Source: Candidatus Tumulicola sp. (GTDB taxonomy: Bacteria; Vulcanimicrobiota; Vulcanimicrobiia; Eremiobacterales; Eremiobacteraceae). Taken from it: a stretch of 35,808 nt of DNA. The DNA lies in assembly GCA_035601835.1 (NCBI GenBank), contig DATNNM010000004.1, forward strand, positions 1 to 35,808, written 5' to 3'. Within the stretch, counting starts at the first letter, position 1, and each line of letters starts with the position of its first letter. Positions 3,708 to 30,827 of the stretch are shown here, piece after piece. Below the pieces are notes generated by a model. That model saw only the letters and a program-made list of their open reading frames with translations. It did not search any database and was not told the DNA's origin. The position numbers and the translations under genes are program-made.

Positions 3708-3733
3708 AAAGGTCCTGTAGTATGTCGGGATAG

Positions 3734-3756
3734 GCCGCACAAAGGTTCAGTGCGGC
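3734..3756 (-). terminator. Hairpin between pilB and the macroglobulin gene
   Basis: A perfect 7-bp stem GCCGCAC / GTGCGGC with a 9-base loop lies just after the pilB stop. No T-run follows on the minus strand, so termination is uncertain. It could instead be a processing or attenuation structure ahead of the macroglobulin gene. Confidence 0.35.
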
Positions 3757-3767
3757 GCCTTTAGGAC

Positions 3768-5954
3768 CTAGGCCGTCACCCGGAGGACTTCGCGCAAAGT
3801 CGTTTCGCCTGAGAGCATGCGCCCGATCGCATCGTCGCGCAAGTCGGTGAAGCCGCGCGACGTGACGTAATCCAGCAGCTGGCCCGAATCCGCGCCCCGC
3901 GCTATCAGGCGTCGCAGACCCTCGTCCACGACCACCACTTCATGCACCGCGAGGCGGCCGTGATAACCGCTCTCGTGGCAGCGCTCGCAGCCGCGGCCCC
4001 GGCGTAACACCTTAGGCGTCGCCACCGGCACCATCTCCTGCAGCACCACCTGCTCTTCCAGCGGCACTTCGTAGTCCTCGACGCAGCGATCGCAGATGCG
4101 CCGCATCAAGCGCTGACCGACGACGCCGAGCAGCGATGAGGCGATCATCGCGGGATCCACGCCGATATCCACCAGTCGCGCGATCGCCTGGATCGCGGTG
4201 TTCGTGTGCAGGGTAGATAGCAGCAAGTGGCCGGTGAGCGCCGCGCGCACCGCCAAGTCGGCGGTCTCGCGATCGCGGATCTCGCCGACGTAGATCACGT
4301 CCGGGTCCTGGCGCAGAATCGCGCGCAGCACCGAGGCGAAGGTCAAATTGCGTTTGAGCTGGATCTCGACCTGATTGACGCCGGCGACGCGATACTCGAC
4401 GGGCTCTTCAATCGTGGTGATGTTGGTGGTGCCGTCGTTGATCTCTTGAAGGACGGCGAACAAGGTCGTCGACTTGCCGCTGCCGGTCGGACCGCAGCAC
4501 AGCAGCATGCCGTAGGGCCGCCTGGTCAGCGGGGCGATCGCGTCGTAGTTGCGCTCCGAGAATCCCGTGGACTTCAGCGATTTGAAGATCGGGTTCTTCT
4601 CCAACAGCCGGATCACGATCTTCTCGCCGTACACGGTCGGCATCGAGGAGATGCGCAAGTCGAAATCCTTGCGCTGGTAACGCATGGACATGCCGCCGTC
4701 TTGGGGCACGTGGCGAATGGTGATGTCCATGCGCGACATGATCTTGATGCGCGACACCACGGCGGGGTACAGGCGCTTCGGCAGGGTGCGCAGTTCGCGC
4801 AACACGCCGTCGAGCCTGAACCGCACGGACACCTTGTCGGCGAACGGTTCGAGGTGGATGTCGCTCGCTCGGTCCTCGACCGAGGTCCGCAGCAGCGATT
4901 CCACGAGCTGGACGATCGGCTGGGTGTCCGAAAGCTTGCGCAGCGTTTCGAGATCCTCGACCTCGCCCATGCCCGCAAAGGCGTCCAGCGCTCCGGACGT
5001 CTCCGGCACCGAATCGAGCAGCCGGTCCACCGAGTGCAGCGATGCCGCGTGATACAGGTTGTTGATCGCGTTTGCGACATCTTCGATGAGCGCGAAGCGC
5101 ACGTCGAGGGTCATCTTCACGCGATGGTTGAGCATGTCGATCGCGAGCAAGTCGCTCGGATCCGCCATGGCCACGATGAACTTTTCCTCTTCGCGGCGCA
5201 CCGGCACGATCAAGCGATCCGTAGCCATGTGCTCGGGGATGACGTCCGCTTCGCCCTCGTCCGGCCGGATCCGCGTCAAATCGATGAACGGGACGTGATA
5301 GAGATCGCTGAGGAATTGATCAACGCTTTCGCGCGGCGTGATCGAAAACTCGGTGAGCACGTCGCGCAGGTTACGCCCCTGCAGGAGGCGAGCATAGAAG
5401 ATCTTGTCGATGGCGGAAGCATCGAGCTTGTGGACCTGGTCGATGCGCCGCAGCAGCCGCAAGTAATATTGATAATGCGCCGGCGTGATGGGTTCGGCGC
5501 CGATGCGGGGCACGTCGTCGTCGGGATCGATGTTGCTGTCCGCGAAACCCTTGGTCCCGTTGGCTGGGGAATAAATCGTTTCGAACAGCATGAAGCGATC
5601 GGCGGCCACCATGTCGCCGAAACTGATGCCGTACTCGTGCTCCTGCGGGTCGATGGCGTTGTGCCACACGATCTCGACCGGCACGCGCACCATGTCGCTT
5701 CCGGTGAGGCGGATCTGCGCCGAACCCACGTCTCCCATTTTCAGCTCGTTGTGGGACTCGAAGCGCATGCCGCCGGCGCTGAGGTCGGTGGTCTCGCCCA
5801 TGGCAACGCGGCCGTCGTTGGTCCGAATCGTGACGGACAAACGCATGCGGCGCCGCTTAAAGCGGCGCTCGGCTTTCGGAAGGTCGGGGAAGAGCTCTTT
5901 GCTTCCCCTCATCGTCCGAGCCGGCTGGCTGCTCTGTGCACGTGCTGCTGACAT
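3768..5954 (-). CDS. pilB: PilZ-PilB: type IV pilus extension ATPase with N-terminal PilZ domain
   Basis: The 728-residue protein has three parts. Residues about 30-130 form a PilZ domain with both c-di-GMP signatures, RRRMR (RxxxR) and DLSAGG ([D/N]xSxxG). Residues about 160-305 match the T2SSE/MshE N-terminal domain. The rest is a GspE/PulE-type secretion ATPase with Walker A GPTGSGKST near 485, Walker B VIYVGEIRD near 552, and a zinc tetracysteine CDRC...CERC near 622-655. In the family this ATPase powers pilin polymerisation at the inner membrane. Tetracysteine and length favour PilB over the retraction ATPase PilT. It stands apart from the pilM-Q cluster, 143 bases after mdh, with a Crp-like site upstream. 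The start ATG has AAGGG close by. The PilZ fusion is unusual for PilB; direct c-di-GMP control is inferred from the motifs. Confidence 0.95.
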   Translation of the reverse strand: MSAARAQSSQPARTMRGSKELFPDLPKAERRFKRRRMRLSVTIRTNDGRVAMGETTDLSAGGMRFESHNELKMGDVGSAQIRLTGSDMVRVPVEIVWHNAIDPQEHEYGISFGDMVAADRFMLFETIYSPANGTKGFADSNIDPDDDVPRIGAEPITPAHYQYYLRLLRRIDQVHKLDASAIDKIFYARLLQGRNLRDVLTEFSITPRESVDQFLSDLYHVPFIDLTRIRPDEGEADVIPEHMATDRLIVPVRREEEKFIVAMADPSDLLAIDMLNHRVKMTLDVRFALIEDVANAINNLYHAASLHSVDRLLDSVPETSGALDAFAGMGEVEDLETLRKLSDTQPIVQLVESLLRTSVEDRASDIHLEPFADKVSVRFRLDGVLRELRTLPKRLYPAVVSRIKIMSRMDITIRHVPQDGGMSMRYQRKDFDLRISSMPTVYGEKIVIRLLEKNPIFKSLKSTGFSERNYDAIAPLTRRPYGMLLCCGPTGSGKSTTLFAVLQEINDGTTNITTIEEPVEYRVAGVNQVEIQLKRNLTFASVLRAILRQDPDVIYVGEIRDRETADLAVRAALTGHLLLSTLHTNTAIQAIARLVDIGVDPAMIASSLLGVVGQRLMRRICDRCVEDYEVPLEEQVVLQEMVPVATPKVLRRGRGCERCHESGYHGRLAVHEVVVVDEGLRRLIARGADSGQLLDYVTSRGFTDLRDDAIGRMLSGETTLREVLRVTA

Positions 5955-5965
5955 GAACCCTTACT

Positions 5966-5984
5966 TTCCGGGCCCCGCCCGGAA
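5966..5984 (-). promoter_or_regulatory. Hairpin next to the pilB ribosome binding site
   Basis: An 8-bp perfect stem TTCCGGGC / GCCCGGAA with a 3-base loop ends 11 bases before the pilB start codon, abutting the AAGGG ribosome binding site. No T-run follows, so it is unlikely to be the mdh terminator. It may affect translation initiation of pilB. Confidence 0.4.
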
Positions 5985-6058
5985 CGCTTCCTGCGCGCGA
6001 AGTCGGAGCGCTTTCTCTAGGTCAATGCCCACAAGGGCATGCCCGCGCCCCACCCTAC

Positions 6059-6074
6059 TGTGATTATCGTCACT
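6059..6074. promoter_or_regulatory. Candidate Crp-family binding site upstream of pilB
   Basis: TGTGA-TTATCG-TCACT matches the E. coli CRP consensus TGTGA-N6-TCACA at nine of ten half-site bases. It lies in the mdh-pilB intergenic region, centred about 112 bases upstream of the pilB start, which suits activation from an upstream promoter. A Crp-family regulator with conserved recognition residues is encoded at 26957-27661. Confidence 0.5.
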
Positions 6075-6097
6075 TTCGGACGACGGTTTCACCTTGC

Positions 6098-7027
6098 CTA
6101 CCCGGCCGGCAGCGCCTCCACGAGGCTCTTGACCGCCTCGGCGGACTTCTGGAGCGCCGCTTGCTCGGCCGGCGTGAGCTTGATTTGGACGATCTCTTCG
6201 AGCCCCTTGGCTCCCAGCTTGCACGGAACTCCGATGAAGAGGTCCTTGATGCCGTACTCGCCTTGCAAGAACGCTGCGCAAGGCAAGATCTTGTGCTTGT
6301 CCTTGAGGATCGCGTCGACCATCTCAGCGATGGCACGCGCCGGCGCGTAGTAGGCGCTTCCTGCCTTGAGCAAGGCGACGATCTCGCCGCCGCCGCCTGC
6401 GGTGCGCTTCACCAGCCGATCGATAGCGGCCGCGTCCATGAGTTCCGTGATCGGAATGCCGGCCACCGTGGAGTAGCGGGGCAGCGGCACCATTTGATCG
6501 CCATGCCCGCCCAACACGAACGCGTGCACGTTGTCCACGCTGACCTTCAGCTCTTGCGCGATGAACGTGCAGAACCTGGCCGAATCCAAAACGCCCGCCA
6601 TGCCGATGATGCGCTCGCGCGGCAGCCGGCTGACGCGGCGCGCCACCTCGCACATCGCATCCAGCGGATTGGTGACGATGATCAGAATGGCGTCCGGCGA
6701 ACCGGCGACGGCGGCCTTGGTGGCCGCGCCCACGATCTCGGCGTTCGCCTTCAGCAGGTCGTCACGGCTCATGCCGGGTTTGCGCGGGAAGCCGGCGGTG
6801 ATCACCACGATGTCGGAACCTTTCGTGGGCGCATAGTCGTTGCTGCCGACGACGTCGACGTTACTGCGTTCCACCGGCAACGCCTCGAGCAGATCGAGCG
6901 CCTTGCCCTGCGGTATGCCCTCGACGACATCCACGAGCACGATGTCGGCGAGTTCTTTTTGGGCCAACCAGTGGGCCGTGGTGGCGCCGACATTACCGGC
7001 GCCCACGATCGTGACTTTCTTTCGCAT
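6098..7027 (-). CDS. mdh: Malate dehydrogenase (LDH-like, NAD-dependent)
   Basis: The 309-residue protein interconverts malate and oxaloacetate in the TCA cycle. It has the Rossmann motif GAGNVG (9-14) and an acidic NAD-ribose residue in LVDVVEG (31-37). The substrate loop [11 protein letters not shown] (80-90) carries Arg82 and Arg88; the R-K-P-G-M form indicates malate rather than lactate specificity. Also present are N120, D148, R151 and catalytic H175 in GGHGDQM. The start at 7027 is chosen because AAGGGG lies about seven bases upstream and the Rossmann strand begins at residue 4. A longer in-frame extension to 7240 overlaps the anti-sigma gene and looks unlike protein. It follows the anti-sigma gene by 38 bases. 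Confidence 0.95.
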
Positions 7028-7065
7028 GATCACCCCTTGTCCACTCTCGTTGCAGTGCCGGTCGT

Positions 7066-7899
7066 CTAGATCGCGGTCTCCATCAAAAACGGCCTCGTCG
7101 GGATTCCGGTGCCCGCGCCGTGTTCCATGCTGAAGGCCACGATGTCGCCCTTGCGCAGCGGCATCGGCAGATCCATGATCGTCATGCCGCCTTTTTGAAC
7201 CGCGCCCGCGCTGTGCGCCTGGCCGTTGCGCACGACCCACAATTGGTAACTCATGCCTTTGGGGGCATTGGGCACCGACGCCATCACCATGCCGTTCTTG
7301 TTCTCGTCCATTGGTTGCACGACGGTGCTATGCCAGGTGCGTCCGGTTGCGTCTTGTCCGCGGCCCATCTCCCAGTACGAACCGGTAGCGAGGGACGCCA
7401 TGACGTCGTGGCCGTGCTCGGCCTTCGCGGCGAGCTCGGTGTTCGCCGCCTCCAGCGCCGTCACGCGCGCCGTCGCTTGCGCGAGCGCGTGGGCCATGCG
7501 TTCCCGTTCGTGTGATTGATTCATCGCGATGAAGACGGCCACGATCGCCGCCAAGCCGGCCGCCGCGGTGAGCCAGTACTGCGCATAGCGCCACAGCGCG
7601 CCGGGCTCACCCGCGCGTTCGCCGCTGCCGGCGTTTGTCCGGCTTCGACGCCTCAACATCGTCTTTGCTTTGATCTCGCCTTGCGCCGCGGCGACCAACC
7701 TGCGCTTGAGCTCGTCGTCCGGCTGCGCGGTCTCGCACGCGAGCGGAAGCATTCCCACTACGTTTTGCATCTCCGCGAGTTCGACCCGGCACGGCTCGCA
7801 CGCCGCGATGTGCTCGCGCACGACCAGCTGGTCTTCGGGCGAAAGCGCCCCGAGCGCGTACGGCGCGGTCATATCGAAGACGTGGAAGAGTTGGGTCAT
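7066..7899 (-). CDS. Anti-sigma factor, RskA family, membrane anchored
   Basis: The 277-residue protein has an N-terminal zinc-anti-sigma motif, H30-x3-C34-x2-C37, in a segment typical of SigK-type anti-sigma factors. A single membrane helix lies at about 108-127, and a C-terminal RskA domain follows ([17 protein letters not shown] region). The topology puts the sigma-binding head in the cytoplasm and the RskA domain outside. Its start ATG overlaps the sigma gene stop by four bases (ATGA), the usual arrangement for a cognate pair. The family holds the ECF factor inactive until proteolysis or redox change releases it. The inducing signal cannot be read from sequence. Confidence 0.9.
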
Positions 7900-8465
7900 G
7901 TCGCAGCCTCGCCGAGCTTTTGACCTTCGAGGTAGCCCTTGAGCTTCAGCAGGCCTAGACGAAGCCGGCCCTTGACCGTGCCGAGCGGCACTCCCATGAG
8001 CTCGGCGATCTGCACGTGCGTGTAGCCGGAGAAGTACGCGAGCTCGATGCTCTTGCGTTGCTCGGCCGGAAGGTCGTCCAGCGCATTGCGCACGAGATCG
8101 CCGCGCAGCTCAGCCCAGACCTGCTGCCACACGCCCGGCTCGTCGGCGGGAGTGTCCGGCAGCTCGTCAAGCGGCGACGCTGCGCTCGTTGACGCGCTCG
8201 CGCGCAGTTTGTCGATGGAGCGATGATGGACGACCGAAAGCAGCCACGTGCGGACGCTGCCGCGTTCCCGCCGAAACGAGCCGGCCTGGCGCCAGACGGC
8301 CAGAAAGGCCTCTTGCAGCACGTCTTCGGCTGAATTGCGCTCGCCGACGATGCGATACGCCAGCGAATAGCCGATCTTATTGTAGCGGTCGTAGAGCTCT
8401 TCCAAACCGGAAACCTCGCCGCGCGCCAGCGCGGCGATCAGATCCTCGTCCGACCGATCCGGCAT
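7896..8465 (-). CDS. ECF RNA polymerase sigma factor (SigK/RpoE type)
   Basis: The 189-residue protein has only sigma regions 2 and 4. Region 2 (about 20-88) includes AEDVLQEAFLAVWR and the DNA-melting segment through RTWLLSVVHHRSIDKLR. Region 4 (about 130-180) has a helix-turn-helix, HVQIAELMGVPLGTVKGRL. Size and domain set are those of ECF sigma factors. It is translationally coupled to the RskA-type anti-sigma gene downstream, as in the SigK group. The start ATG lies nine bases after GAGGGA, and that ribosome binding site is one arm of a hairpin (8475-8508). Target promoters are unknown; mdh may be co-transcribed. Confidence 0.93.
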   Translation of the reverse strand: MPDRSDEDLIAALARGEVSGLEELYDRYNKIGYSLAYRIVGERNSAEDVLQEAFLAVWRQAGSFRRERGSVRTWLLSVVHHRSIDKLRASASTSAASPLDELPDTPADEPGVWQQVWAELRGDLVRNALDDLPAEQRKSIELAYFSGYTHVQIAELMGVPLGTVKGRLRLGLLKLKGYLEGQKLGEAAT

Positions 8466-15465: not shown

Positions 15466-16532
15466 GCCGTTCCGTCTGCGGTGGGAGGCGAGCCGCATCG
15501 CTCGATCACGGCGCGCACGGACGCTGCGTTCACGCGCACGCCGACGCGCACTTCGCCCACCTTCACCGGCAAAACGAAGCGCATCTCTCCGTCGACGCGC
15601 TTCTTATCGCGACCAAGCGCCTCCACGACCGCGTCCACCGACAGTCCCTCGAAATGGACCGGGAGCCTGCACTTCGTCAATGCGCGCAAGAGGCGAGCTT
15701 GCTCGGCTTTCGACCACAAGCCCTCGCCCATTGCGAGCATGCCGGCCGCGCGCAGCCCTACGGCCACCGTCTCGCCATGCGACATCCGAAAGAGTGAAGC
15801 GGCCTCTAGGGCATGGCCTATGGTATGACCGAGATTCAATGCAGCCCGAGCCCCCGAATCCCGAGGATCCGCGGCCACGATCGCTATCTTGACGCGCGCC
15901 GCGGCGCCGATGCTGCCCGCGTCCAATGCTCGCATGCCGCGGCGTTCGATCGCCTCGAACAGAGCGGGGTCGCCGATGATGCCTGACTTGACGATTTCGG
16001 CCATGCCGGTGGAGCGCTGGCGGCGGGGTAATGTGTCAAGTGCGCCGAGGTCGCCGATCACCGCGACCGGATCCCAAAAAGCGCCGACGAGGTTCTTGCC
16101 CTCAGGCAGATCGACCCCGGTCTTGCCGCCGATCGCCGCGTCGACCATCCCAAGCACCGTCGTCGCCACCGGCAGCCACGCGAGCCCTCGCAAATAGGTC
16201 GCGGCGACAAAGCCGGCAAGATCGGTCAGCGTTCCGCCCCCGACGGCCAGCAACAATGTGCCGCGCTCGACGCGAAGCGAGGTCAGCCAGTGCATGACGT
16301 CGGTCGCGCTGCGCAAGGTCTTGCGCCGTTCGCCTGCCGCCAAACCGCGTTCTCCGAGGACGCGCACGCTTTGCGCCTCAAGCGCCGCCCGCACCGCCGC
16401 GGCCCTGCTCGCGATCCGGCGGTCGAAAACCACGACGCACGCAGCGCCGCGCCGCGCGACGATGCGAGCGGCTTCCGCGGGGCCGTCTTCCGTGACGAGC
16501 ACGCTGTACGGCAATCCGTCGAGGATCATCAT
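15462..16532 (-). CDS. aroB: 3-dehydroquinate synthase
   Basis: The 356-residue enzyme catalyses the second shikimate-pathway step, DAHP to 3-dehydroquinate, using NAD and a divalent metal. Visible signatures are GGGTLTDLAGFVAATYLRG (nucleotide-binding), LPEGKNLVGAFWDP, and the metal-binding LNLGHTIGHALEA. Length is typical. The start ATG at 16532 overlaps the aroK stop as ATGA, with a second ATG three bases on; an in-frame extension to 16571 lies inside aroK and is rejected. Its own stop overlaps the priA start in the same way, so aroK, aroB and priA are translationally coupled. Confidence 0.96.
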   Translation of the reverse strand: MMILDGLPYSVLVTEDGPAEAARIVARRGAACVVVFDRRIASRAAAVRAALEAQSVRVLGERGLAAGERRKTLRSATDVMHWLTSLRVERGTLLLAVGGGTLTDLAGFVAATYLRGLAWLPVATTVLGMVDAAIGGKTGVDLPEGKNLVGAFWDPVAVIGDLGALDTLPRRQRSTGMAEIVKSGIIGDPALFEAIERRGMRALDAGSIGAAARVKIAIVAADPRDSGARAALNLGHTIGHALEAASLFRMSHGETVAVGLRAAGMLAMGEGLWSKAEQARLLRALTKCRLPVHFEGLSVDAVVEALGRDKKRVDGEMRFVLPVKVGEVRVGVRVNAASVRAVIERCGSPPTADGTA

Positions 16533-17053: not shown

Positions 17054-17062
17054 CGCGTGCGG

Positions 17063-17647: not shown

Positions 17648-17689
17648 GACAGACTCTATTCGCGCGCACAGCGCGCGAGTCCCGCGCGC

Positions 17690-20446: not shown

Positions 20447-20469
20447 GAAGGAGCGCCTCTACTTTTGGT

Positions 20470-21719: not shown

Positions 21720-23672
21720 TCACTTCTCATTCATGATGTGCGGCGTGATCAAGAAGACCACCTCGTTGTGGATCTTGCCCTTTTGCACGTTGCGGAAGAG
21801 CGCGCCGAGGATGGGGATGTCGCCCAGCAGCGGCACTTTGGTGATCGTCTTCGTGACTTCGTCGTCCAGCAAGCCGCCAAGCACGATCGTGTCGCCGTCC
21901 TTCACGCGCAGCGTATCCGTCACTTTGCGGTTGTTCAAGATCGGGAAGTTCTGCACGAGCCCGGTGATCACGCTGCGTTCGACGTTCATCGTCGTCGTGA
22001 TGTAGCCGTCGGTGTTGATGACCGGCGTGATGATGAGCTTGACGCCGATGTCGATGTACTGGACTTGGAAGTTGCCCGCCTTCGGATCGTAGTACACGAT
22101 GGGGTACGTCTGACCGATGAGCAGGCTGGCCTGCTGGTTGTCCAACGCAGCCACGCGCGGGTTCGCCAGCAATTCCGCCTCGTTATGCGAGATCAGGTAG
22201 TTCACTTTGGTCGAGATGAAGAACGCGTTGCGCGTGAACGGCTGCACCGCGATCGGGTTGAGCGAGGTCTTCGGCGGAGACGCGAGATCGGGGACCGCCG
22301 GGCACGCGATGCAGTTCTCGAACAGCCCGAGATCGCTGGAGCCGCCGAAGCTCACGCCGACGTTCGACGTGTCGTTGTTCTTCGTGATGTCGATGACTTT
22401 GACTTCGAACACCACTTGCGGCGCCGGCACATCGGCCAGCGCGAGGAAGTTGCGCGCCGACTGGATGATGTCCGGCGACCCGGTCACCAGCAGCGTGTCG
22501 GTGCGTGGATCGATGGTGAACGAACCACCAGGCAGCACGGTGCCGATCTGCTTGCCGAGCGCCGTGGGGTCGGCGTACTTGATCGGGAACGCGACGGTCT
22601 GCGCGGTCTGACCCGCCGAACCGAACTGTTTGGTCAGGTCTTCGGGCGTACCGACGACATACACGTTGCCGACGGTGCGATATTCAAGGCCGTTCGTGCG
22701 CACGACGAGATCGAGCGCGGTCTTGAGCGGCACGTCGTGCAAACTCACCGTCGTCGTGCCTTTGACGCTCGACGTCGCGATGATGTTCTGGCCGCTTTGC
22801 TGCGCGAGGACCTTGAGCACGTCCACGATGTCCGCATTCTTGACGTCGATCGAAACCGTTCCCGACGACGCGTACTGCGGCGCTCGAGGCAGCGTGCCTC
22901 CGTTCGCATTGGCGTTGGCGTTCGAGCTCGAACTCATGCCGCCCGTGTAAGGATGTTTCACGCCGGGGATCTTGCAGTAGTACTTGCCGCCCGGCAACCA
23001 GGGATTCGGCGTCGCTTGCGCCACGACGGCAGGTGCTGCTACCGCAGTGACGTGCTTGACGGGCGCGGGCTTCGCCGGCGCCGCCGCCGGCTGCTTGTAC
23101 GGAGCCGGCGCGAAGGCGACGTGCTTCACGGGCACGGCTTTGGGCGCTTGGACGTTGTCCGTGCCGGCGATCGCTGCCGTCTGTTGCGCAGCCGCTTTGC
23201 GCGCGGCGGCCACGGCCTCGTCGGCGGGCAGCACGTGCGGCGCTTGGTCGGTGCGAACCGCAAGCGTCACAGAGCCCCCCCCGCCTTGAAGCAGATCGTA
23301 TTTGGGCGCGCCTTGCGACTCGACCACGATGCGCAGCACCGCGGGTGAGTCGGAAAGCTGTCCTATCCGTACCTGGCGGATCTGCCCGTCGCTGAACCCG
23401 ATGACTTTGGTCCGGCCTTCGTAGCTTGCCGGCGTCACGTCGACCACCAGATCCTCGACGTCGTTCTTCGAGTCGACCGAGTACTTGTGGACGCGGGTGG
23501 AGACGGCGCTCGCCGCCGTCACCGTCAGCCGAAACGCCCCGCCTTGCCTGGCGTACTTGACGTCGGTTACGGGATTGTCCCCGGCGCGGCCAGGCTGCGG
23601 CGCAAGCACGCTGCTCAGCAGCATGATGCCGCCGAGTAGCCAGGTCGCCGCCGACCGATAGTGCCGATGCAT
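21720..23672 (-). CDS. pilQ: Type IV pilus secretin with AMIN domain
   Basis: The 650-residue protein forms the outer-membrane pore for the pilus. A signal peptide (about 1-30) leads to an AMIN domain (about 35-145) that in the family binds peptidoglycan. A Pro/Ala/Lys-rich linker contains PVKHV repeats and an NANANANGG run. Secretin short domains follow (VSIDVKNADIVDVLKVLAQQ, then FPIKYADPTALGKQIGTVLP). The secretin core then has NEAELLANPRVAALDNQQAS and the C-terminal VPLLGDIPILGALFR signature. The start ATG at 23672 lies two bases after the pilP stop; upstream in-frame codons belong to the pilP region. Cysteines in YYCKIPG and ENCIAC are unusual for a secretin. Confidence 0.95.
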   Translation of the reverse strand: MHRHYRSAATWLLGGIMLLSSVLAPQPGRAGDNPVTDVKYARQGGAFRLTVTAASAVSTRVHKYSVDSKNDVEDLVVDVTPASYEGRTKVIGFSDGQIRQVRIGQLSDSPAVLRIVVESQGAPKYDLLQGGGGSVTLAVRTDQAPHVLPADEAVAAARKAAAQQTAAIAGTDNVQAPKAVPVKHVAFAPAPYKQPAAAPAKPAPVKHVTAVAAPAVVAQATPNPWLPGGKYYCKIPGVKHPYTGGMSSSSNANANANGGTLPRAPQYASSGTVSIDVKNADIVDVLKVLAQQSGQNIIATSSVKGTTTVSLHDVPLKTALDLVVRTNGLEYRTVGNVYVVGTPEDLTKQFGSAGQTAQTVAFPIKYADPTALGKQIGTVLPGGSFTIDPRTDTLLVTGSPDIIQSARNFLALADVPAPQVVFEVKVIDITKNNDTSNVGVSFGGSSDLGLFENCIACPAVPDLASPPKTSLNPIAVQPFTRNAFFISTKVNYLISHNEAELLANPRVAALDNQQASLLIGQTYPIVYYDPKAGNFQVQYIDIGVKLIITPVINTDGYITTTMNVERSVITGLVQNFPILNNRKVTDTLRVKDGDTIVLGGLLDDEVTKTITKVPLLGDIPILGALFRNVQKGKIHNEVVFLITPHIMNEK

Positions 23673-23674
23673 GT

Positions 23675-24208
23675 TTAACCCCCCAACGAGAATGTGCGCA
23701 CGCCGTCCGGCGAGGACAAGCGTACGTAACCGGGCCCGATGGCCAGGACGCGATAACGAGAAGCGATGAGTTCTCCAGGCCGCGCGACGTATGACTTGCC
23801 GCCGGCCTCGATGATGGCGCTGACGTACGAACCGTTCCGTACGATGCCGCTCAGCCGGACGCCGGCCCACGGTCCTTGATCTGCCGCAGCGCCTTCGAAA
23901 CCAGGCAGCGTCGGGATCTTCGGAAACGTGGATACGGAGACACGGCTCTTCATAGACTTGATCATGCTGCTGCTGTTGTCCGTCGCCGGTCCGTAGAGCG
24001 CGACGAACGGATCGGCGCGACCAGCGCCGGCGTTCGGCCTGGCGCGCACGATCGGTACCGGCGTGGCGACCGACGAGGCCAGCGGCACGGCTTCAACACG
24101 TCTCACCGCCACGACGGGTGCGCTCGATGTGTCGGGCGCGCTCGAGCATGCGCTTAGGCAGGCGCTGATGACCGCTGTGATGACTAGGGCTGCGAAATTT
24201 TTCATCAC
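23675..24208 (-). CDS. pilP: PilP-like lipoprotein
   Basis: The 177-residue protein has a lipoprotein signal with lipobox LSAC (Cys about 21). A low-complexity stretch follows, and then a small C-terminal domain, VRLSGIVRNGSYVSAIIEA... through IGPGYVRLSSPDG, that resembles the beta domain of PilP. PilP links the inner-membrane PilN/PilO pair to the PilQ secretin. Position between pilO and pilQ supports the call more than sequence does. GGAGG precedes two possible starts, GTG at 24208 and ATG at 24205. RADPFVALYG before the domain is like the linker seen in PilP and GspC. Confidence 0.75.
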   Translation of the reverse strand: MMKNFAALVITAVISACLSACSSAPDTSSAPVVAVRRVEAVPLASSVATPVPIVRARPNAGAGRADPFVALYGPATDNSSSMIKSMKSRVSVSTFPKIPTLPGFEGAAADQGPWAGVRLSGIVRNGSYVSAIIEAGGKSYVARPGELIASRYRVLAIGPGYVRLSSPDGVRTFSLGG

Positions 24209-24211
24209 GCG

Positions 24212-25090
24212 CTACCCTCCCCGCGTTCCCGGAGACTGTACGGGAGCCGGCTGCGCCGGCGCGTTCGGACTCAAGCGATACGCCGTGATCGGCAGCGTGA
24301 TGCGCAAGCGCGGTATCGATCCGACGCCCGCATTGCTTCCCGGCGCCAGCGTCAGATCACCGACGCCCAGCAACTTCGGAAACTTGTTGAGGTCGCGCAG
24401 GAAGCGCTGCAGATCGTTGTACGTCCCGTCGAATTCCATGTTCATCGGAACCTGCGTGAAGGATTGATTCAGGTACGCGATCGCCTTTTGCCGTGCGGTG
24501 GCCGGGCCTTGCGGCTTCGGCGATCCGCCGGGCCGGCCGGGAGCGAACGAGGCCGCGCCCGCCGGACTTCCCGGAATCGGCGTCGGCGCGCCCGCAAAAG
24601 TTTGGCTCTGCGCTTGACTTGTCGTCTGGTTGGCCTGCCCCTCGGAACCCGCCACGCGGGCGGCGCTTCGGATCGGGCCGCCGATCAGCGGCGCGTTCGC
24701 CACAGCCTGCGCGTTGGGCGTTGCTCCAGGCGCGACGCTCGGTCCAGGCGTCGGCGACGGCGTCGCCTGCGGCGCGACGAGCGCGACCTGCAGCCCATCT
24801 TTCTTGGCGAGGTCTTCTATCTGCTTTAGATACGACGGTATGTAGGCGCGCGGGTCCGCGGTCAGTTCGACGCCGGTCAAGCGCTGACGGACCTGCTTGG
24901 TCAACGCGAGGTACAGAGGCTTTTGATCGGCCACGCGTTTGAGATTGTCGTATTGCGTCTGCAGGTTGGCGATTTGGTCGCGCGTCGCCGCCTCTTGCTG
25001 GCGCTTGGGTTGGATGACCAAGAACCACGCGAGCAAAGCGATGAACACGATAACGCCCGCGACGATCAGATTGCGGTTCGTAGGGCTCAT
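24212..25090 (-). CDS. pilO: Pilus alignment protein PilO, with long disordered insert
   Basis: The 292-residue protein has a single membrane helix (about 10-26), a periplasmic coiled coil (about 30-100), and a C-terminal ferredoxin-like domain (about 195-280, AIAYLNQSFTQVPMNMEFDG onward) as in PilO. Between them lies about 90 residues rich in Pro, Gly, Ala and Gln, which makes it longer than the usual ~200-residue PilO. PilO pairs with PilN in the inner-membrane alignment complex. ATG at 25090 overlaps the pilN stop as ATGA; in-frame codons further upstream lie within pilN and are rejected. Confidence 0.88.
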   Translation of the reverse strand: MSPTNRNLIVAGVIVFIALLAWFLVIQPKRQQEAATRDQIANLQTQYDNLKRVADQKPLYLALTKQVRQRLTGVELTADPRAYIPSYLKQIEDLAKKDGLQVALVAPQATPSPTPGPSVAPGATPNAQAVANAPLIGGPIRSAARVAGSEGQANQTTSQAQSQTFAGAPTPIPGSPAGAASFAPGRPGGSPKPQGPATARQKAIAYLNQSFTQVPMNMEFDGTYNDLQRFLRDLNKFPKLLGVGDLTLAPGSNAGVGSIPRLRITLPITAYRLSPNAPAQPAPVQSPGTRGG

Positions 25091-25662
25091 TGTCCGATCA
25101 CCGCCGGGCTCAACAGGCCCACGACCGTGAATGCGACCCCGCCGTTTGAGGTCTGGCCGTTCATGATCGTCTGCGTGCTCGTTGTCAGCGACGCGTTCCC
25201 GAAGATCGGCGACGCGTCGAGATTGAGCATCAGATCGGCGACCTCGCGCAACGTAGAGGTTCTGCCTGCGAAATTGACTTGCCCACCGGTCACCGAGCGG
25301 GCCACCTGCACGCTGGTGAACCACACGCCGCGCGGCGCCTGGTTGGAGATGTCGGTGAGTATCTCAGCCAGCTGGAGCGGGCTCTGCTTGATGCGCTCGA
25401 GCAGCTCGGCCTTTGCCTTGAGCTGTTGGGCCTGATCGCGCAAGTCGTCGACTTCTTTGACGGCCTGCTGTTCGACCAGCACCTTCTGCGAGACGTCCGC
25501 GTATTGGTTGTTCAGCTGGGTGATGACGTTGTTCTCGTAAAGCACGAAAATGCCCAAAGCGAGCAGTTCCACGGCGATCACCGTGAGCCCGATCGCGAGC
25601 CCGCGATCGAAGGTGACGACCGGAGCTCGTTGCGCTGACGGGAGAAGGTTGATATTGATCAC
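25087..25662 (-). CDS. pilN: Pilus alignment protein PilN
   Basis: The 191-residue protein starts MININLLPSAQR. The I-N-L-L-P motif is the conserved cytoplasmic tail of PilN that binds the groove of PilM. A membrane helix (about 22-43), a coiled coil (about 45-95) and a periplasmic domain (about 100-185, with GVWFTSVQV and VNFAGRTSTLREVADLM) follow. The start is GTG at 25662 with GAGGGA upstream. It follows pilM by 25 bases and overlaps pilO by four. Confidence 0.94.
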   Translation of the reverse strand: MININLLPSAQRAPVVTFDRGLAIGLTVIAVELLALGIFVLYENNVITQLNNQYADVSQKVLVEQQAVKEVDDLRDQAQQLKAKAELLERIKQSPLQLAEILTDISNQAPRGVWFTSVQVARSVTGGQVNFAGRTSTLREVADLMLNLDASPIFGNASLTTSTQTIMNGQTSNGGVAFTVVGLLSPAVIGQ

Positions 25663-25687
25663 GGATGGTCCCTCGTCGTCCCTTTGC

Positions 25688-26800
25688 TCACGCCGCTCGT
25701 CCGTCGGATTGCAAGTCGCGGCGGCCGAGGCCGGCTGCGACGATCAACGACGGGCCGAGATCGGCCAGGTACTCGGTGGGGAAATCGACCGGATTGTAGC
25801 TTGCGCGGTCCAGCGGATTGGCGATGTGCACCGGCAGCGCTAGTTCGCGCGAGAGAAAGCTGTCGATATTCGCCAGCCGCGCTGTGCCGCCGCCGAGGAT
25901 CACGCTCTCGATCGTCTCACCGCGGAAACGCGTGCGGAAATAATCGAGCGATTTGTGGATCTCGGTGACGAGCTCGGTCAACGGCGGCGTGATGACGTTG
26001 AACAGCCGGGTGACCGTCGGCGGCGCGGGCTCCGCTTCGCCCTGCGTGAGGACGGCCGCTTTCTCTCTTTTCAGTTTTTCCGCTTCCTCGGTGGAGATGT
26101 TCATGCCGGTCGCGATCGCTTTGGTGAACGCATCTCCGCCGATCGGAACGTTACGCGTGAACGGCACGAAGCCGCTCTTGGTGATGTTGATGCTGGTGGA
26201 CGACGCGCCGATGTTGATGATCGCGATGTTTTGCTCGAAATCCGGGTCCTGAGGCGACAGCATCGCGCGCACCATGGCGAACGGCTCCACTTCGACGATC
26301 GCAGGCGTGAGGCCGGCGAATTGCAGCGCGCTCACCTGGCTGAGCACCAGGTCCTTCTGCGCCGCGACGATGAGCACGTCCATGTTCTGGCCGTCTTCCG
26401 AGCGTCCGAGGATCTTCGCGTCGATCTGCGCTTCTTCGACCGAATATGGAAGGAAGCGCTCGGCTTCGTACTTCGTCGAGTCACGCAGTTCGCGTTCGTT
26501 CATCAACGGCATGGAGACTTGACGGACGACGACGGTGGGACCGCTCACCGCGCTCACGACGCGCTTTGCAGAAAAAGCGCCGTCGGCGAACAGATGGCGA
26601 AGTGCGTCGCCCACCACGGGTGGATCCGTGATGACGCCGTCTTTGATCGAGTTGGATGGCGTGGCGATTTTGTAAACGTGCTCGAGCACTGGACCGCGTC
26701 CAGACGGCGCGAACTGCACCGCTTTCAACTCCGCAGAGCCGAAATCGATGCCGACATAGTGCTGCCCGCCGCGCGCGAACATCCGACCGAGGAACGACAT
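25688..26800 (-). CDS. pilM: Pilus assembly actin-like ATPase PilM
   Basis: The 370-residue cytoplasmic protein has the actin/FtsA-like fold. VGIDFGSAELKAVQF near the N-terminus is the phosphate-1 loop, AIINIGASSTSINI the phosphate-2 loop, and SVILGGGTARLANIDSFL the adenosine loop. In the family it binds ATP and the PilN tail and links the alignment complex to the ATPase. I chose ATG at 26800; in-frame ATG 26815 and TTG 26833 are alternatives, and only the first few residues differ. It is the first gene of pilMNOPQ. Confidence 0.95.
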   Translation of the reverse strand: MSFLGRMFARGGQHYVGIDFGSAELKAVQFAPSGRGPVLEHVYKIATPSNSIKDGVITDPPVVGDALRHLFADGAFSAKRVVSAVSGPTVVVRQVSMPLMNERELRDSTKYEAERFLPYSVEEAQIDAKILGRSEDGQNMDVLIVAAQKDLVLSQVSALQFAGLTPAIVEVEPFAMVRAMLSPQDPDFEQNIAIINIGASSTSINITKSGFVPFTRNVPIGGDAFTKAIATGMNISTEEAEKLKREKAAVLTQGEAEPAPPTVTRLFNVITPPLTELVTEIHKSLDYFRTRFRGETIESVILGGGTARLANIDSFLSRELALPVHIANPLDRASYNPVDFPTEYLADLGPSLIVAAGLGRRDLQSDGRAA

Positions 26801-26915
26801 GGCCCCTTTTCCCATCCCCGTCGTGCGGAACAAGAATCAAGAAAGGCTGCCGGGGAAATATGCCTCTCGCTGTAACCTATCGGCCAAAGGTGGGACGGAT
26901 TTTAGAACAGTTATT

Positions 26916-26943
26916 CGAGTGCCGGGAGGCTCGTCCCGACTCG
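26916..26943 (-). terminator. Hairpin after the Crp-family gene
   Basis: On the minus strand CGAGT-c-GGGA pairs with TCCC-gg-c-ACTCG around CGAGCC. It starts about 14 bases after the Crp-family stop codon, and AATAACTGTTCT follows. It may terminate or attenuate transcription before pilM, whose promoter would lie in the remaining roughly 110 bases. Confidence 0.4.
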
Positions 26944-26956
26944 TAGTACGGCGCCG

Positions 26957-27661
26957 CTAGCCTACCAGGGTCTTGAGCTTGGCTGCGTCGGCGATCACAA
27001 TGTGGCCCGTCTGCATGTCGATCAGCTTCTCATCCCAGAAGCGATTCAGCATGCGATTCGCCGTCTCGCGCGTCGTGCCGATCATGTTCGCCATTTCCTG
27101 ATTCGTCAAACGCAGGGTCAGCCGGATGCCGCCCTCGACGGTCTCGCCGAACTGCCCGCTTAAGTGCAGCAGCAGCGCTGCCAAGCGCGTGCGGATGTCT
27201 TGGTAGGCTGCGGCTTGAATCGCCTGGTTCGTCTCGCGCAACCGCGCTGACAGCGCCAGCACCAGCGAGAGGCTCATATTCGGGCTTTTAGCGAGCAGCT
27301 CGAGAAAATCTTTGCGCGGCAGCATCGCCGCTTCGACCTCGCCGATGGCCTTGATCGTGGCGGAGCGAGGCGAACCGTCAAGCACGCCCATCTCGCCGAA
27401 AAAGTCGCCTTCGCGCAAGATCGTGAGGATGGTCTCTTTGCCGTCGTTGCTGACGCGAGTGACCGCCACATTGCCTTTGACCACGATGAACAACGCATCG
27501 CCGGCGTCGCCTTCGTAGACGAGCACGGCATGTTTCGGGTAGCGGCGTGAGACCATGAGCGCAGCGACCGCGGTGCGGTCGTTTTCGCTGAACTCCCCGA
27601 AGAGCGGGACTTTTTTCAGCAGCGCGGGCTCGAGTGCTTTATCCGACGTTCGTTGCCCCAT
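26957..27661 (-). CDS. Crp/Fnr-family transcription regulator
   Basis: The 234-residue protein has an N-terminal cyclic-nucleotide-binding domain (about 18-130). Its phosphate-binding cassette FFGEMGVLDGSPRSAT holds E90, R99 and S100, equivalent to cAMP contacts in E. coli CRP. A dimer helix and a C-terminal winged helix-turn-helix follow. The recognition helix reads TRETANRML (R198, E199, R203), keeping the R-E-x3-R contacts that read TGTGA half-sites. No Fnr-type cysteines are seen. The start ATG at 27661 has GGAGG five bases upstream; a longer in-frame extension overlaps pilD. Set between pilD and pilM, it probably controls pilus genes. cAMP as ligand is inferred. Confidence 0.9.
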   Translation of the reverse strand: MGQRTSDKALEPALLKKVPLFGEFSENDRTAVAALMVSRRYPKHAVLVYEGDAGDALFIVVKGNVAVTRVSNDGKETILTILREGDFFGEMGVLDGSPRSATIKAIGEVEAAMLPRKDFLELLAKSPNMSLSLVLALSARLRETNQAIQAAAYQDIRTRLAALLLHLSGQFGETVEGGIRLTLRLTNQEMANMIGTTRETANRMLNRFWDEKLIDMQTGHIVIADAAKLKTLVG

Positions 27662-27687
27662 CCTATCCTCCCTAACTGTATCGGCTG

Positions 27688-28467
27688 CTACCCGCGCGTC
27701 CAATACGATTGCAGGAGGGCGCGATACCACTCGTAAGGTCCGCTTATCGCAAGCGGGGCATAAGTGGCGATGAGCGACGCAAGGACCAAAAAAGGCCCGA
27801 ATGGCAGCGCGTCGCGCCGGCCGCGTTTGCCGGCCAGCAGTATCGGGACGGCGAGCAACGCGCCGATGACAAAAGCTGCCACCGCAACGCCGAGTCCTAA
27901 AGGAAACCCGTACAGCAGACCGAGCGCCGCGCCGAGCTTGACGTCACCAAGCCCAAGGCCCGCCCCGCGCGTCCCCAAGTAGACCGCGCCGAAGATGGCG
28001 GCTCCGAGCGCCGCGCCTTCGAGCGCGCCGATGATGTCGCGCTCCGTCAACGCGCGCACGAGGCCGATCGCGCCAAGCGCGACGACGCTCCAGTCAAGCA
28101 CCAGCAGGTGGTCCAGATCGATGAACGCGACCGCGATCAGGACCGCGCTCGCAAGGCAAGCCAGCGCGGTCTGCACGCTCAGTCCGAACTCCACAAAGGC
28201 CAGGACGAACAGCACGCCGGTCAACAGCTCCACGAGCGGATAGCGTCCGGACACCGGCGCGCCGCAGTAGCGGCATTTCCCGCCGAGCAGCATGTACGAG
28301 AACACCGGAACGTTGTCGATGGCTGAAAGCGGATGCCGGCATGCGGGGCAGTGCGAGCCCGGACGGATCAGCGACTCGCCGCGCGGCAAGCGGTAGATCA
28401 CGACGTTCAGAAAAGAGCCGAACGCCAGCCCGACGATGCCAAAAAGGATGAGGATCAGTGAGGTCAT
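27688..28467 (-). CDS. pilD: Prepilin peptidase / N-methyltransferase
   Basis: The 259-residue inner-membrane protein cuts prepilin leaders and methylates the new N-terminus. The N-terminal methyltransferase part has two CxxC pairs (C40/C43 and C65/C68) as in PilD. The aspartyl protease part has IDLDH (117-119) and GLGD (172-175), the two catalytic Asp motifs. Several membrane helices span the rest. It lies 18 bases after the last pilin gene and 26 before the Crp-family gene, so one transcript is likely. Confidence 0.96.
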   Translation of the reverse strand: MTSLILILFGIVGLAFGSFLNVVIYRLPRGESLIRPGSHCPACRHPLSAIDNVPVFSYMLLGGKCRYCGAPVSGRYPLVELLTGVLFVLAFVEFGLSVQTALACLASAVLIAVAFIDLDHLLVLDWSVVALGAIGLVRALTERDIIGALEGAALGAAIFGAVYLGTRGAGLGLGDVKLGAALGLLYGFPLGLGVAVAAFVIGALLAVPILLAGKRGRRDALPFGPFLVLASLIATYAPLAISGPYEWYRALLQSYWTRG

Positions 28468-28485
28468 CGGCGCCTGCGAGCGGCC

Positions 28486-28962
28486 TTAGTTGCCGACGAT
28501 GCCGGCGTTTTGGTCGTACAGGATCCCCGTGCACGCCGTGCAGTTCGCAGTCGTACCATCTTTCACCAGCGCACGCGTGGTGGTCGGGTCGTGCTTGGCG
28601 CTGTCGCTGACTTGATAAGCGCCATAGGAGCCGGGCGTGTTGGTGATCGTGTACGCGGCGTTATCGACCGGGTCGGTCGGCGTGAAACTTAGGTACGGCG
28701 TGGTGAGACCACTCGCTCCGAAGCCGCCCGGATACGCGCCGTGGTTATCGACGGCATATTCTTCCATAGCGGTCGCGATCTGCTGCTCGTTGCTTTCGCA
28801 GGCCGAGGTCTGCGACTCGGCGCGGGCGTGCAGGAAGTTCGGGATCAAGATCGCCGCGAGAATCGCGATAATCGCGATGACGATCATGAGCTCGATGAGC
28901 GTGAAGGCGCGTCGAAGGCGTGGCAAGTCCTGGGTCCACCTTTCCCCTATTTTAATGCCCAC
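28486..28962 (-). CDS. Type IV prepilin 1 (Ala at -1 of cleavage site)
   Basis: The product has a basic leader, then RRA|FTLIELMIVIAIIAIL, a hydrophobic helix and a globular domain with AMEEYAVDNHGAYP, typical of major pilins and GspG-like proteins. Glu5 of the mature form is kept. The residue before cleavage is Ala rather than the near-universal Gly. Cysteines are one in SACESNE and a CTAC pair near the C-terminus. The start is uncertain: GTG at 28962 gives a 25-residue leader, while TTG at 28926, preceded by AAAGGTGG nine bases upstream, gives a 7-residue leader. It is the most divergent of the four tandem pilins and lies directly before pilD. Confidence 0.88.
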   Translation of the reverse strand: MGIKIGERWTQDLPRLRRAFTLIELMIVIAIIAILAAILIPNFLHARAESQTSACESNEQQIATAMEEYAVDNHGAYPGGFGASGLTTPYLSFTPTDPVDNAAYTITNTPGSYGAYQVSDSAKHDPTTTRALVKDGTTANCTACTGILYDQNAGIVGN

Positions 28963-28991
28963 ATCCCCGCTGGTTAGCCCGTAAAGGCGAT

Positions 28992-29027
28992 GGGCGGCCG
29001 GTCACACTCCGTGACCGCCCGCCCGCC
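28992..29027 (-). repeat. Inter-pilin hairpin repeat, copy 1
   Basis: GGTCAC-ACTCC-GTGACC forms a perfect hairpin extended by flanking G/C-rich arms. It lies between pilins 2 and 1, after the pilin 2 stop in transcription order. Similar sequence is found in the other two inter-pilin gaps, together with shared flanks such as TCGGTCTCGAGGGCCGCTA. Confidence 0.75.
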
Positions 29028-29046
29028 ACTTCGGTCTCGAGGGCCG

Positions 29047-29520
29047 CTATTGGCCGACGATGCCGCCGCTCTGGTTGTAGGAGATGCTCGTGCAAGCCGT
29101 GCACTTCGCGCCGCCGGCCTGGAATAACCCTATGGTCGTGGTCGGGTCGTGGCCGCCGCTGTCGTTGACCTGATAGGAGCCGTACGCGCCCGCCGTGTTC
29201 GTCAACGTGTAGGTCGTGCCATTGACCGGATCCTTGGGCGCGAAGGTCAGGTACGGCGTGGTGAGACCGCTCGCCCCGAAGCCGCCCGGATATGCGCCGT
29301 TGTTATCGACTGCGTACTCTTCCATCGCCGTGGCGATCTGTTTCTCGTTGCTCTCGCAGGCCGCGGTCTGCGACTCGGCGCGGGCGTGTAAGAAGTTCGG
29401 GATCAGGATCGCCGCCAGGATCGCGATAATCGCGATGACGATCATGAGTTCGATAAGCGTGAAAGCGCGCTGAAGGCGTGGCAATTCCCGGCTCCACCTT
29501 TCCCTTTTCTTAATGCCCAT
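29047..29520 (-). CDS. Type IV prepilin 2 (Ala at -1 of cleavage site)
   Basis: It has the same architecture as prepilin 1: QRA|FTLIELMIVIAIIAIL, then a globular domain with GGFGASGLTTPYLTFAPKD and a C-terminal CTAC pair. The first 24 residues closely resemble those of prepilin 1, and both carry Ala before the cleavage point. ATG at 29520 gives a 25-residue leader; TTG at 29484, with AAAGGTGG upstream, gives a 7-residue one. The C-terminal half is closer to prepilins 3 and 4, so it is intermediate within the array. It is likely polymerised into, or a variant subunit of, the same pilus. Confidence 0.88.
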   Translation of the reverse strand: MGIKKRERWSRELPRLQRAFTLIELMIVIAIIAILAAILIPNFLHARAESQTAACESNEKQIATAMEEYAVDNNGAYPGGFGASGLTTPYLTFAPKDPVNGTTYTLTNTAGAYGSYQVNDSGGHDPTTTIGLFQAGGAKCTACTSISYNQSGGIVGQ

Positions 29521-29551
29521 ATCCCTCGCCGGCTAGCCCGGTAAAGGCGAC

Positions 29552-29584
29552 GGGCGGGACGGCCACGCTCCGTGACCCCCGCCC
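29552..29584 (-). repeat. Inter-pilin hairpin repeat, copy 2
   Basis: Outer arms GGGCGGG and CCCGCCC flank GGCCAC-GCTCC-GTGACC (one mismatch). Same position and flanks as copies 1 and 3, here after the pilin 3 stop. Confidence 0.7.
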
Positions 29585-29606
29585 GCTACTTCGGTCTCGA
29601 GGGCCG

Positions 29607-30041
29607 CTATTGCCCGACGATGCCCGCGTTCTGGTTGTAAGAGATGCTCGCGCAAGCCGTGCACTTGGCGCCGCCGCTCTGGAATATCCCTATGGTGGTG
29701 GTCACGTCGTGGCCGCCATTGTCGTTGATCTGGTAGGAGCCGTACGCGCCGGCCGTGTTCGTCAGCGTGTAGCTCGTGCCGTTGACCGGATCCTTGGGTG
29801 TGAAGTTCAGGTACGGCGTGGTCAAGCCGGCCGCGAACGTGTTCGGATACGCGCCGTTGTTATCGACTGCGTACTCTTCCATCGCCGTGGCTATCTGTTT
29901 CTCATTGCCCTCGCAGGCAGACGTCTGCGCTTCCGCGCGGGCGTGTAAGAAGTTCGGGATCAAGATCGCCGCGAGAATCGCGATAATCGCGATGACGATC
30001 ATAAGCTCGATGAGCGTAAATCCCTTTTGGAGTCTTTTCAC
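29607..30041 (-). CDS. Type IV prepilin 3
   Basis: The 144-residue product has a short leader MKRLQKG, cut before FTLIELMIVIAIIAIL (normal Gly at -1), followed by a globular domain with NTFAAGLTTPYLNFTPKD and a CTAC pair. GTG at 30041 is chosen because AGGA lies eight bases upstream and the 7-residue basic leader is typical of type IVa pilins; a longer frame reaches 30137 without a good ribosome site. The mature protein differs from prepilin 4 at only two positions (V/T and Q/K), so the pair arose by recent duplication or is homogenised by gene conversion. Confidence 0.92.
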   Translation of the reverse strand: MKRLQKGFTLIELMIVIAIIAILAAILIPNFLHARAEAQTSACEGNEKQIATAMEEYAVDNNGAYPNTFAAGLTTPYLNFTPKDPVNGTSYTLTNTAGAYGSYQINDNGGHDVTTTIGIFQSGGAKCTACASISYNQNAGIVGQ

Positions 30042-30062
30042 TAGTATAGTCCTATTCTTGAG

Positions 30063-30078
30063 TGTGATACTGCTCACT
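30063..30078. promoter_or_regulatory. Candidate Crp-family binding site upstream of prepilin 3
   Basis: TGTGA-TACTGC-TCACT matches TGTGA-N6-TCACA at nine of ten half-site bases. It ends 21 bases before the prepilin 3 start codon, between prepilins 4 and 3. A -10-like TATACT lies between it and the start, so binding could overlap a promoter and either activate or block it. Confidence 0.5.
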
Positions 30079-30101
30079 CCCCCAGCCCGTATAAGCAACG
30101 A

Positions 30102-30130
30102 GCGGCCAGTCACACTCCGTGACCGCCCGC
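30102..30130 (-). repeat. Inter-pilin hairpin repeat, copy 3
   Basis: GCGGCCAGTCAC-ACTCC-GTGACCGCCCGC folds as in copies 1 and 2, with one mismatch in the stem and one unpaired base. It lies after the prepilin 4 stop and next to the Crp-like site. Confidence 0.7.
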
Positions 30131-30155
30131 CCGCCACCTTTGGCCTCGACAGCTG

Positions 30156-30590
30156 TTATTGGCCGACGATGCCCGCGTTCTGGTTGTAAGAGATGCTCGC
30201 GCAAGCCGTGCACTTGGCGCCGCCGCTCTTGAAGATACCAATGGTGGTGGTCGTGTCGTGGCCGCCATTGTCGTTGATCTGGTAGGAGCCATACGCGCCG
30301 GCCGTGTTGGTCAGCGTGTAGCTCGTGCCGTTGACCGGATCCTTGGGTGTGAAGTTCAGGTACGGTGTGGTCAGGCCGGCCGCGAAGGTGTTCGGGTACG
30401 CGCCGTTGTTGTCAACTGCGTACTCTTCCATCGCCGTGGCGATCTGCTTCTCATTGCCCTCGCAGGCAGACGTCTGCGCTTCCGCGCGGGCGTGCAGGAA
30501 GTTCGGGATCAAGATCGCCGCGAGAATCGCGATAATTGCGATGACGATCATGAGCTCGATGAGCGTAAATCCCTTTTGGAGTCTTTTCAC
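30156..30590 (-). CDS. Type IV prepilin 4 (first of the array)
   Basis: The 144-residue product is nearly identical to prepilin 3: leader MKRLQKG, then FTLIELM, a hydrophobic helix, AMEEYAVDNNGAYP, and a CTAC pair. The third cysteine is in SACEGNE near mature residue 32. GTG at 30590 has AGGA nine bases upstream. It is first in the transcription order of the pilus cluster, so its promoter should lie in 30591-30827 and it is probably the most expressed. Ser/Thr-rich stretches (DTTTTIGIF, YTLTNTAG) could accept sugars from the neighbouring glycosyltransferases; this is speculation. Confidence 0.92.
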   Translation of the reverse strand: MKRLQKGFTLIELMIVIAIIAILAAILIPNFLHARAEAQTSACEGNEKQIATAMEEYAVDNNGAYPNTFAAGLTTPYLNFTPKDPVNGTSYTLTNTAGAYGSYQINDNGGHDTTTTIGIFKSGGAKCTACASISYNQNAGIVGQ

Positions 30591-30827
30591 TGAAATTAGT
30601 CCTCTCTCGTTCTTACTAGTAAGCGTTCTTGCAGTCACCTTGGCCGCCGTTCCCTAGCGACCGCGCGCAGCGAGTCCAATTCCCGCCATCGTGCGTTGCG
30701 CGCCGGACTTCTCCACTCTATGCAATGCCCAACCGCCGCCGGTTTAGACCGCCCAAAGGTGCGTCTGCTCACGCATTTGAACTGCGATGGGGTCCTTAAT
30801 AGAGTTATCGGCCCCCTGGGAGCCGAC
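30591..30827. promoter_or_regulatory. Divergent promoter region with a CTTACTAGTAAG palindrome
   Basis: This gap separates the pilus cluster (minus) from the first glycosyltransferase (plus), so it must carry start signals for both. A perfect 12-bp palindrome CTTACTAGTAAG sits at 30612-30623, 22 bases upstream of the prepilin 4 start, flanked by CGTTCTT on both sides as a direct repeat. I see no clear sigma-70 or sigma-54 boxes and no Crp-like site here. Confidence 0.4.

Follow-up and report, generated by a model that had tools for sequence, protein, structure and literature searches.

PilZ domains usually sense the signal molecule cyclic di-guanosine monophosphate (c-di-GMP). The control of the pilus extension ATPase PilB by c-di-GMP, its sensing by an MshEN domain on the motor chain and the binding of a separate PilZ protein to PilB are all known. 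In MshE-type motors the ND0 bundle of the N-domain itself binds c-di-GMP (PMC5013675). In Xanthomonas citri a separate PilZ protein packs on the PilB N-domain, mainly on ND1, and folds it; the c-di-GMP site is absent from both this PilZ and the PilB N-domain, and the signal is brought by FimX (PMC8389850). Here we analyse a gene in which a PilZ domain precedes a PilB-type ATPase on one chain, found in a stretch of 35,808 nucleotides (hereafter the window; contig DATNNM010000004.1, assembly GCA_035601835.1) from Candidatus Tumulicola sp. The organism belongs to the Candidatus Eremiobacterota, little-studied soil bacteria, and we know of no cultured pilus model in this phylum.

The fusion gene is one uninterrupted open reading frame (ORF) of 728 codons on the minus strand (Table 1), while the plus-strand translation of the same interval is interrupted by stops. 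The PilZ and T2SSE domains are both recognised by Pfam above cut-off within this single ORF, which bears out the initial annotation of a PilZ domain N-terminal to a PilB-type ATPase. That annotation had described sensor and motor as one chain, which is right for PilZ but overlooked that an MshEN-type N-domain (residues 158–304, comprising ND0 and ND1) is present as well, between PilZ and the motor. Nor is a one-chain sensor and motor a departure from known systems, as had been proposed, since MshE and other PilBs sense through their own MshEN (PMC5013675, PMC11656802). The description of the motor as a complete PilB agrees with its domain content, including the Walker A motif and a zinc tetracysteine (C621/C624/C656/C659) that is invariant among the relatives, but goes too far as a class assignment: the protein scores 504.7 bits with TIGR02538, the NCBIfam equivalog model of type IV-A PilB (cut-off 675.65), and 521.8 bits with TIGR02533, that of type II GspE (cut-off 630.25). 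As the TIGR02538 cut-off is not reached, the fusion was filed as PilB-like and not as a member of that family.

The ligand motifs were examined in an alignment of 14 fusion copies, whose N-terminal regions are 33–55% identical to that of the window protein. R30 and R34, within R-R-F-K-R, are invariant in all copies and were therefore taken as the RxxxR motif of the PilZ domain. The RRRMR signature proposed earlier (R34–R38) is the wrong pair, as R38 is kept in just 7 of the 14, whereas the DLSAGG signature at residues 57–62 was correctly identified. Both RxxxR (R30/R34) and [D/N]xSxxG (D57/S59/G62) are thus present in the window protein, and R30, R34 and G62 are among the only 10 of 90 PilZ positions that are invariant.

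The MshEN domain presents the opposite picture, with the fold retained and the ligand contacts lost. It is recognised by its Pfam profile (Table 1) and by a fold match to MshE (5htl). Contacts were defined according to PMC5013675, the first motif position being relaxed as in PMC11731258. The residues through which MshEN makes its polar contacts with c-di-GMP, G11, Q32, G40 and Q61 (PMC5013675), are absent from all 14 aligned fusions, and in the window protein they are replaced by L, R, R and L, respectively. Among the 14 key MshEN positions, the window protein matches 4 and the fusions overall 4–7. A relaxed pattern scan for the tandem 24-residue motif (R/K/L)LGxx..G..LxxxLxxQ detected none in the fusions, but recovered it in PilBs of other phyla used as control (L088, L091, L094, L098). 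The same four contact residues are kept in none of eight ordinary PilBs of the family that were examined.

An AlphaFold model of the N-terminal 342 residues, built with the 14 aligned sequences (mean predicted local distance difference test score 77, predicted template modelling score, pTM, 0.67), consists of a PilZ barrel, a four-helix ND0 bundle at 158–219 (helices 158–175, 179–191, 196–202 and 208–219) and an alpha/beta ND1. With a pTM of 0.39 the full-length model is too weak to give the domain arrangement. In Foldseek searches the N-domain matched MshE with c-di-GMP (5htl), the X. citri PilB N-domain (7lko) and Thermus PilF. The best matches of the PilZ part were the c-di-GMP-bound PilZ domains 4xrn, 4rt0, 5y6g and 5xly, and BcsA structures were also among the fold matches; a comparison of PilZ alone with PDB sequences gave no usable match.

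The source genome is a 2.57-Mb draft in 18 contigs, 97.9% complete. Among 149 genomes of the phylum that were searched, 15 copies of the fusion were found in 12 of the 14 genomes of the window's own family, and none in the other 135. Absence from the two remaining family genomes is uncertain, since one is split into 370 contigs and the other is only 81% complete. All 13 complete homologues, from different genomes and genera, contain all three domains. Twelve copies are orthologous and three represent a second paralogue. Of the orthologous loci, 11 have a malate dehydrogenase gene directly upstream and the remaining one stops at a contig end; most of those with enough flank have a pair of extracytoplasmic function (ECF) sigma and anti-sigma factor genes further upstream. 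In a tree of the motor domains all 13 fusions form one clade (100/100, stem 0.77) apart from the ordinary PilBs of the family, which points to one fusion event and later duplication; the deep branches around this clade are weakly supported (83/75).

In a profile scan of named records, relatives of the fusion were found mostly in metagenome-assembled genomes (MAGs) of Candidatus Eremiobacterota, and in addition on two contigs of a MAG labelled Proteobacteria and one of an unidentified bacterium. A scan of genome contigs with the single protein found no fusion, although the profile did, and none was found on plasmids or phages. Outside the phylum, no PilZ-PilB fusion was seen in 818 genomes of three phyla, namely those of the Holophagaceae (396 genomes), Saccharospirillum (398) and Nitrospirae (24) records, in a shallow survey with few candidates scored per genome and strict thresholds, so that fusions may exist elsewhere. 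Every strong match in this survey starts at or near the MshEN region, without a PilZ part. Long PilB frames of 736–917 aa in the Saccharospirillum-phylum set were rejected as PilZ fusions, being fusions to a C-terminal receiver (REC) domain. Such REC-bearing PilB-type ATPases are L150, L151 and L152 (genomes G619, G780 and G552); in L151 a further C-terminal extension reads by eye like a CheW domain. We found no description of PilZ fused to a pilus ATPase in the literature, of which subscription journals and PilZ reviews were incompletely covered.

The window also contains a type IV pilus (pil) cluster, most likely encoding the machine that the fusion motor drives. PilM (PF11104, 193 bits) and the PilQ secretin (144 bits) were identified by profile matches and the pilins by their motifs GFTLIELMIVIAI, while PilN, PilO, PilP and PilD owe their names to sequence and position, not to a profile. 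The source genome encodes four T2SSE proteins, the fusion and three PilT-like ones, and no other PilB-type ATPase was found in this draft. Its one PilC, the sole T2SSF protein found, is encoded beside a PilT on another contig. Three genomes of genus g5, likewise drafts, also lack an ordinary PilB, whereas the remaining ten family members have one, mostly of 560–590 aa. Thus, as far as draft genomes can tell, two genera have no candidate extension motor besides the fusion. With 13 GGDEF matches in its genome, the organism is probably able to make c-di-GMP. An upstream c-di-GMP riboswitch was rejected for lack of any Rfam match at window positions 5800–6300; across the whole window Rfam matched a tRNA only.

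A PilZ sensor of the c-di-GMP type on the chain of an extension motor fits the sequence, its conservation, the predicted fold and the genome context, and is partly supported by them. We consider it fairly probable from these data that the product of the gene is the motor that extends the type IV pilus and senses c-di-GMP through its covalently attached PilZ. On the most economical reading, PilZ would sense c-di-GMP in place of the eroded MshEN and set motor activity through the N-domain. The ligand would bind to R30 and R34 in the RxxxR loop of PilZ and to D57, S59 and G62 along its DxSxxG edge, and PilZ may then repack on ND0/ND1, comparable to the separate PilZ on PilB ND1 in Xanthomonas. 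Repacking could alter the engagement of PilM/PilN and PilC by the hexamer, or the ATPase rate, and pilus extension would thereby track c-di-GMP without a separate adaptor protein; the ND0 bundle may be retained as a structural or coupling element only. By analogy with MshE, our guess is that c-di-GMP would activate the motor.

A further suggestion is that of a sensor replacement, in which a PilB lineage lost its MshEN site and regained direct c-di-GMP control through an acquired PilZ; the resulting adaptor-free, c-di-GMP-gated motor would then have become the only one for pilus extension in some Eremiobacterota. We regard this as about evenly balanced between right and wrong. The order of events, with loss of the site before gain of PilZ, is not established, because the ordinary PilBs of the family also lack the site and the deep branches of the tree are weak.

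Several observations weigh against a sensing role in pilus extension. The fusion gene is separated from the pil cluster by about 16 kb and has housekeeping genes around it. S59 is replaced by G in 4 of the 14 copies (L058, L060, L061, L062) and D57 by E in L058, so that some fusions may bind c-di-GMP weakly or not at all. In the AlphaFold model residues 1–33, among them the beginning of RxxxR, have no ordered structure; an apo PilZ switch loop could look like this, but the model is no evidence for one. In addition, attachment alone does not imply sensing, since the PilZ of X. citri exerts its effect on PilB although it does not bind c-di-GMP.

The PilZ part might instead be insensitive to c-di-GMP and serve as a built-in folding or docking partner of the PilB N-domain, as if the separate PilZ known from Xanthomonas and Pseudomonas had been tethered for good by fusion. 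The X. citri PilZ, which does not bind c-di-GMP, indeed binds and folds the PilB N-domain, the MshEN ligand motif is missing from that PilB too (PMC8389850), and the loss of S59 in four fusions points in the same direction. A structural or neutral use, however, gives no reason for R30, R34 and G62 to be invariant in all 14 copies and D57 in 13, and the best fold matches of the PilZ part are ligand-bound PilZ domains, so that we regard a purely structural partner as rather doubtful. That the fusion drives not the main pilus but a separate pseudopilus or a machine resembling type II secretion, in which secretion would be under PilZ control, appears less likely still. It would agree with the slightly higher score of GspE over PilB among the NCBIfam models (neither at cut-off), with the deep split of the fusion clade from the ordinary PilBs of the family (stem 0.77), with the ordinary PilB that most family members also retain and with two further secretins in the source genome. 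Against this, neither the source genome nor g5 has another PilB-type ATPase, and the source genome has PilM–PilQ, PilD, pilins, PilC and PilT; its only T2SSF protein is the PilC that adjoins PilT, and the two extra secretins have giant RHS-type genes as neighbours, while no ATPase was seen around them. An artefact, in which a chimeric contig or a read-through would have merged separate PilZ and pilB genes, would be conceivable in a draft of 18 contigs, but was rejected as next to impossible because independent genomes carry the fusion, which is free of internal stops in 12 family genomes, has a conserved gene order, forms a single clade and is found with all three domains in 13 complete copies.

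Table 1. Features of the fusion gene and its surroundings (window coordinates).
Feature	Position	Strand	Details
PilZ-MshEN-T2SSE fusion gene	3768..5954	-	728 aa, ATG start at 5954
PilZ domain, residues 30–119	5598..5867	-	Pfam PF07238, 47.0 bits (cut-off 22.5); fold matches
RxxxR motif R30-R31-F32-K33-R34	5853..5867	-	R30 and R34 invariant in 14/14 relatives
DxSxxG motif DLSAGG, residues 57–62	5769..5786	-	D57 13/14, S59 10/14, G62 14/14
ND0 four-helix bundle (MshEN_N), residues 158–219	5298..5483	-	AlphaFold helices, residue table, PDB matches 5htl and 7lko
ND1 / Pfam MshEN domain, residues 219–304	5043..5300	-	PF05157, 55.0 bits (cut-off 23.1)
T2SSE motor ATPase domain, residues 342–725	3780..4931	-	PF00437, 400.8 bits (cut-off 24.9)
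Walker A GPTGSGKS, residues 488–495	4470..4493	-	Sequence; invariant in 13 relatives
Malate/lactate dehydrogenase family gene	6098..7093	-	Directly upstream neighbour of the fusion
Anti-sigma (RskA-type, zf-HC2) and ECF sigma factor genes	7066..8465	-	Conserved neighbourhood
Type IV pilus cluster	21720..30638	-	PilQ, PilP, PilO, PilN, PilM, Crp-like gene, PilD, four pilins

Some further observations were made in the window and in related loci. The gene after the fusion (3–3740, minus strand) is bacterial alpha-2-macroglobulin-like (MG2, bMG3 and A2M bait region) and is cut by the window edge. Directly after pilQ, at 15462–21645, the shikimate genes aroC, aroK and aroB (named from sequence) surround a gene for a 918-aa tetratricopeptide repeat/coiled-coil protein. 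The four pilin paralogues stand in tandem at 28486–30638, and those at 29607–30137 and 30156–30638 are nearly identical over most of their length, suggesting a recent duplication. At L061:8811–15755, a copy of the second fusion paralogue runs directly into about five pseudopilin-like genes, which suggests that this PilZ-motor serves an operon of its own for minor pilins or a pseudopilus. The paralogous extra secretins of about 906 aa (L156:915–9591 on contig C9 and L157:5176–13968 on contig C11 of G000) are each encoded by a gene that is closely followed, on the same strand, by a giant gene of about 1,700 aa; in the C9 copy the secretin has five Secretin_N repeats and the giant gene RHS repeats. 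As no pilus or type II ATPase was seen near either secretin, these loci look like a duplicated secretin-RHS export pair.

Compared with the described motors, the fusion shares the ND0/ND1/T2SSE core and a c-di-GMP-type sensor on the motor chain with MshE (Vibrio cholerae), PilB (Myxococcus xanthus), PilB2 (Clostridium perfringens) and PilF (Thermus). In those proteins the MshEN_N bundle binds the ligand (PMC5013675, PMC11656802, PMC11731258), whereas in the fusions its four polar contacts are gone and an extra PilZ with an intact motif stands ahead of MshEN. In the PilB-PilZ-FimX system of X. citri (7lko), too, a PilZ fold is paired with a PilB N-domain from which the MshEN ligand motif has been lost (PMC8389850), but in the fusion PilZ is covalently attached and retains RxxxR and DxSxxG. 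The Eremiobacterota protein unites features of the two kinds of system, with PilZ on the motor chain and the ligand motif retained in PilZ but lost from ND0. The receivers of L150–L152 are also signalling domains on PilB-type ATPases (95 bits in L150), but of the phosphorylation type and C-terminal, in contrast to the N-terminal c-di-GMP-type domain of the fusion. In the cellulose synthase BcsA, PilZ is likewise fused to an enzyme, which it controls through c-di-GMP, although that enzyme is unrelated to the fusion motor and its PilZ lies at the C-terminal side. What is new here is which domain probably does the sensing, namely a fused PilZ.

The three-protein PilB-PilZ-FimX system makes PilZ control hard to study. 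If the PilZ part of the fusion binds c-di-GMP, it would provide a one-chain test system for PilZ control of a pilus ATPase, with PilZ, ND0/ND1 and motor at a fixed 1:1:1 stoichiometry and a PilZ ligand site that can be mutated independently, the MshEN site being already gone. It would also mean that c-di-GMP-type input to the same motor can be carried by different domains in different lineages. For the Eremiobacterota, the fusion points to pilus regulation in which the signal may control the pilus directly.
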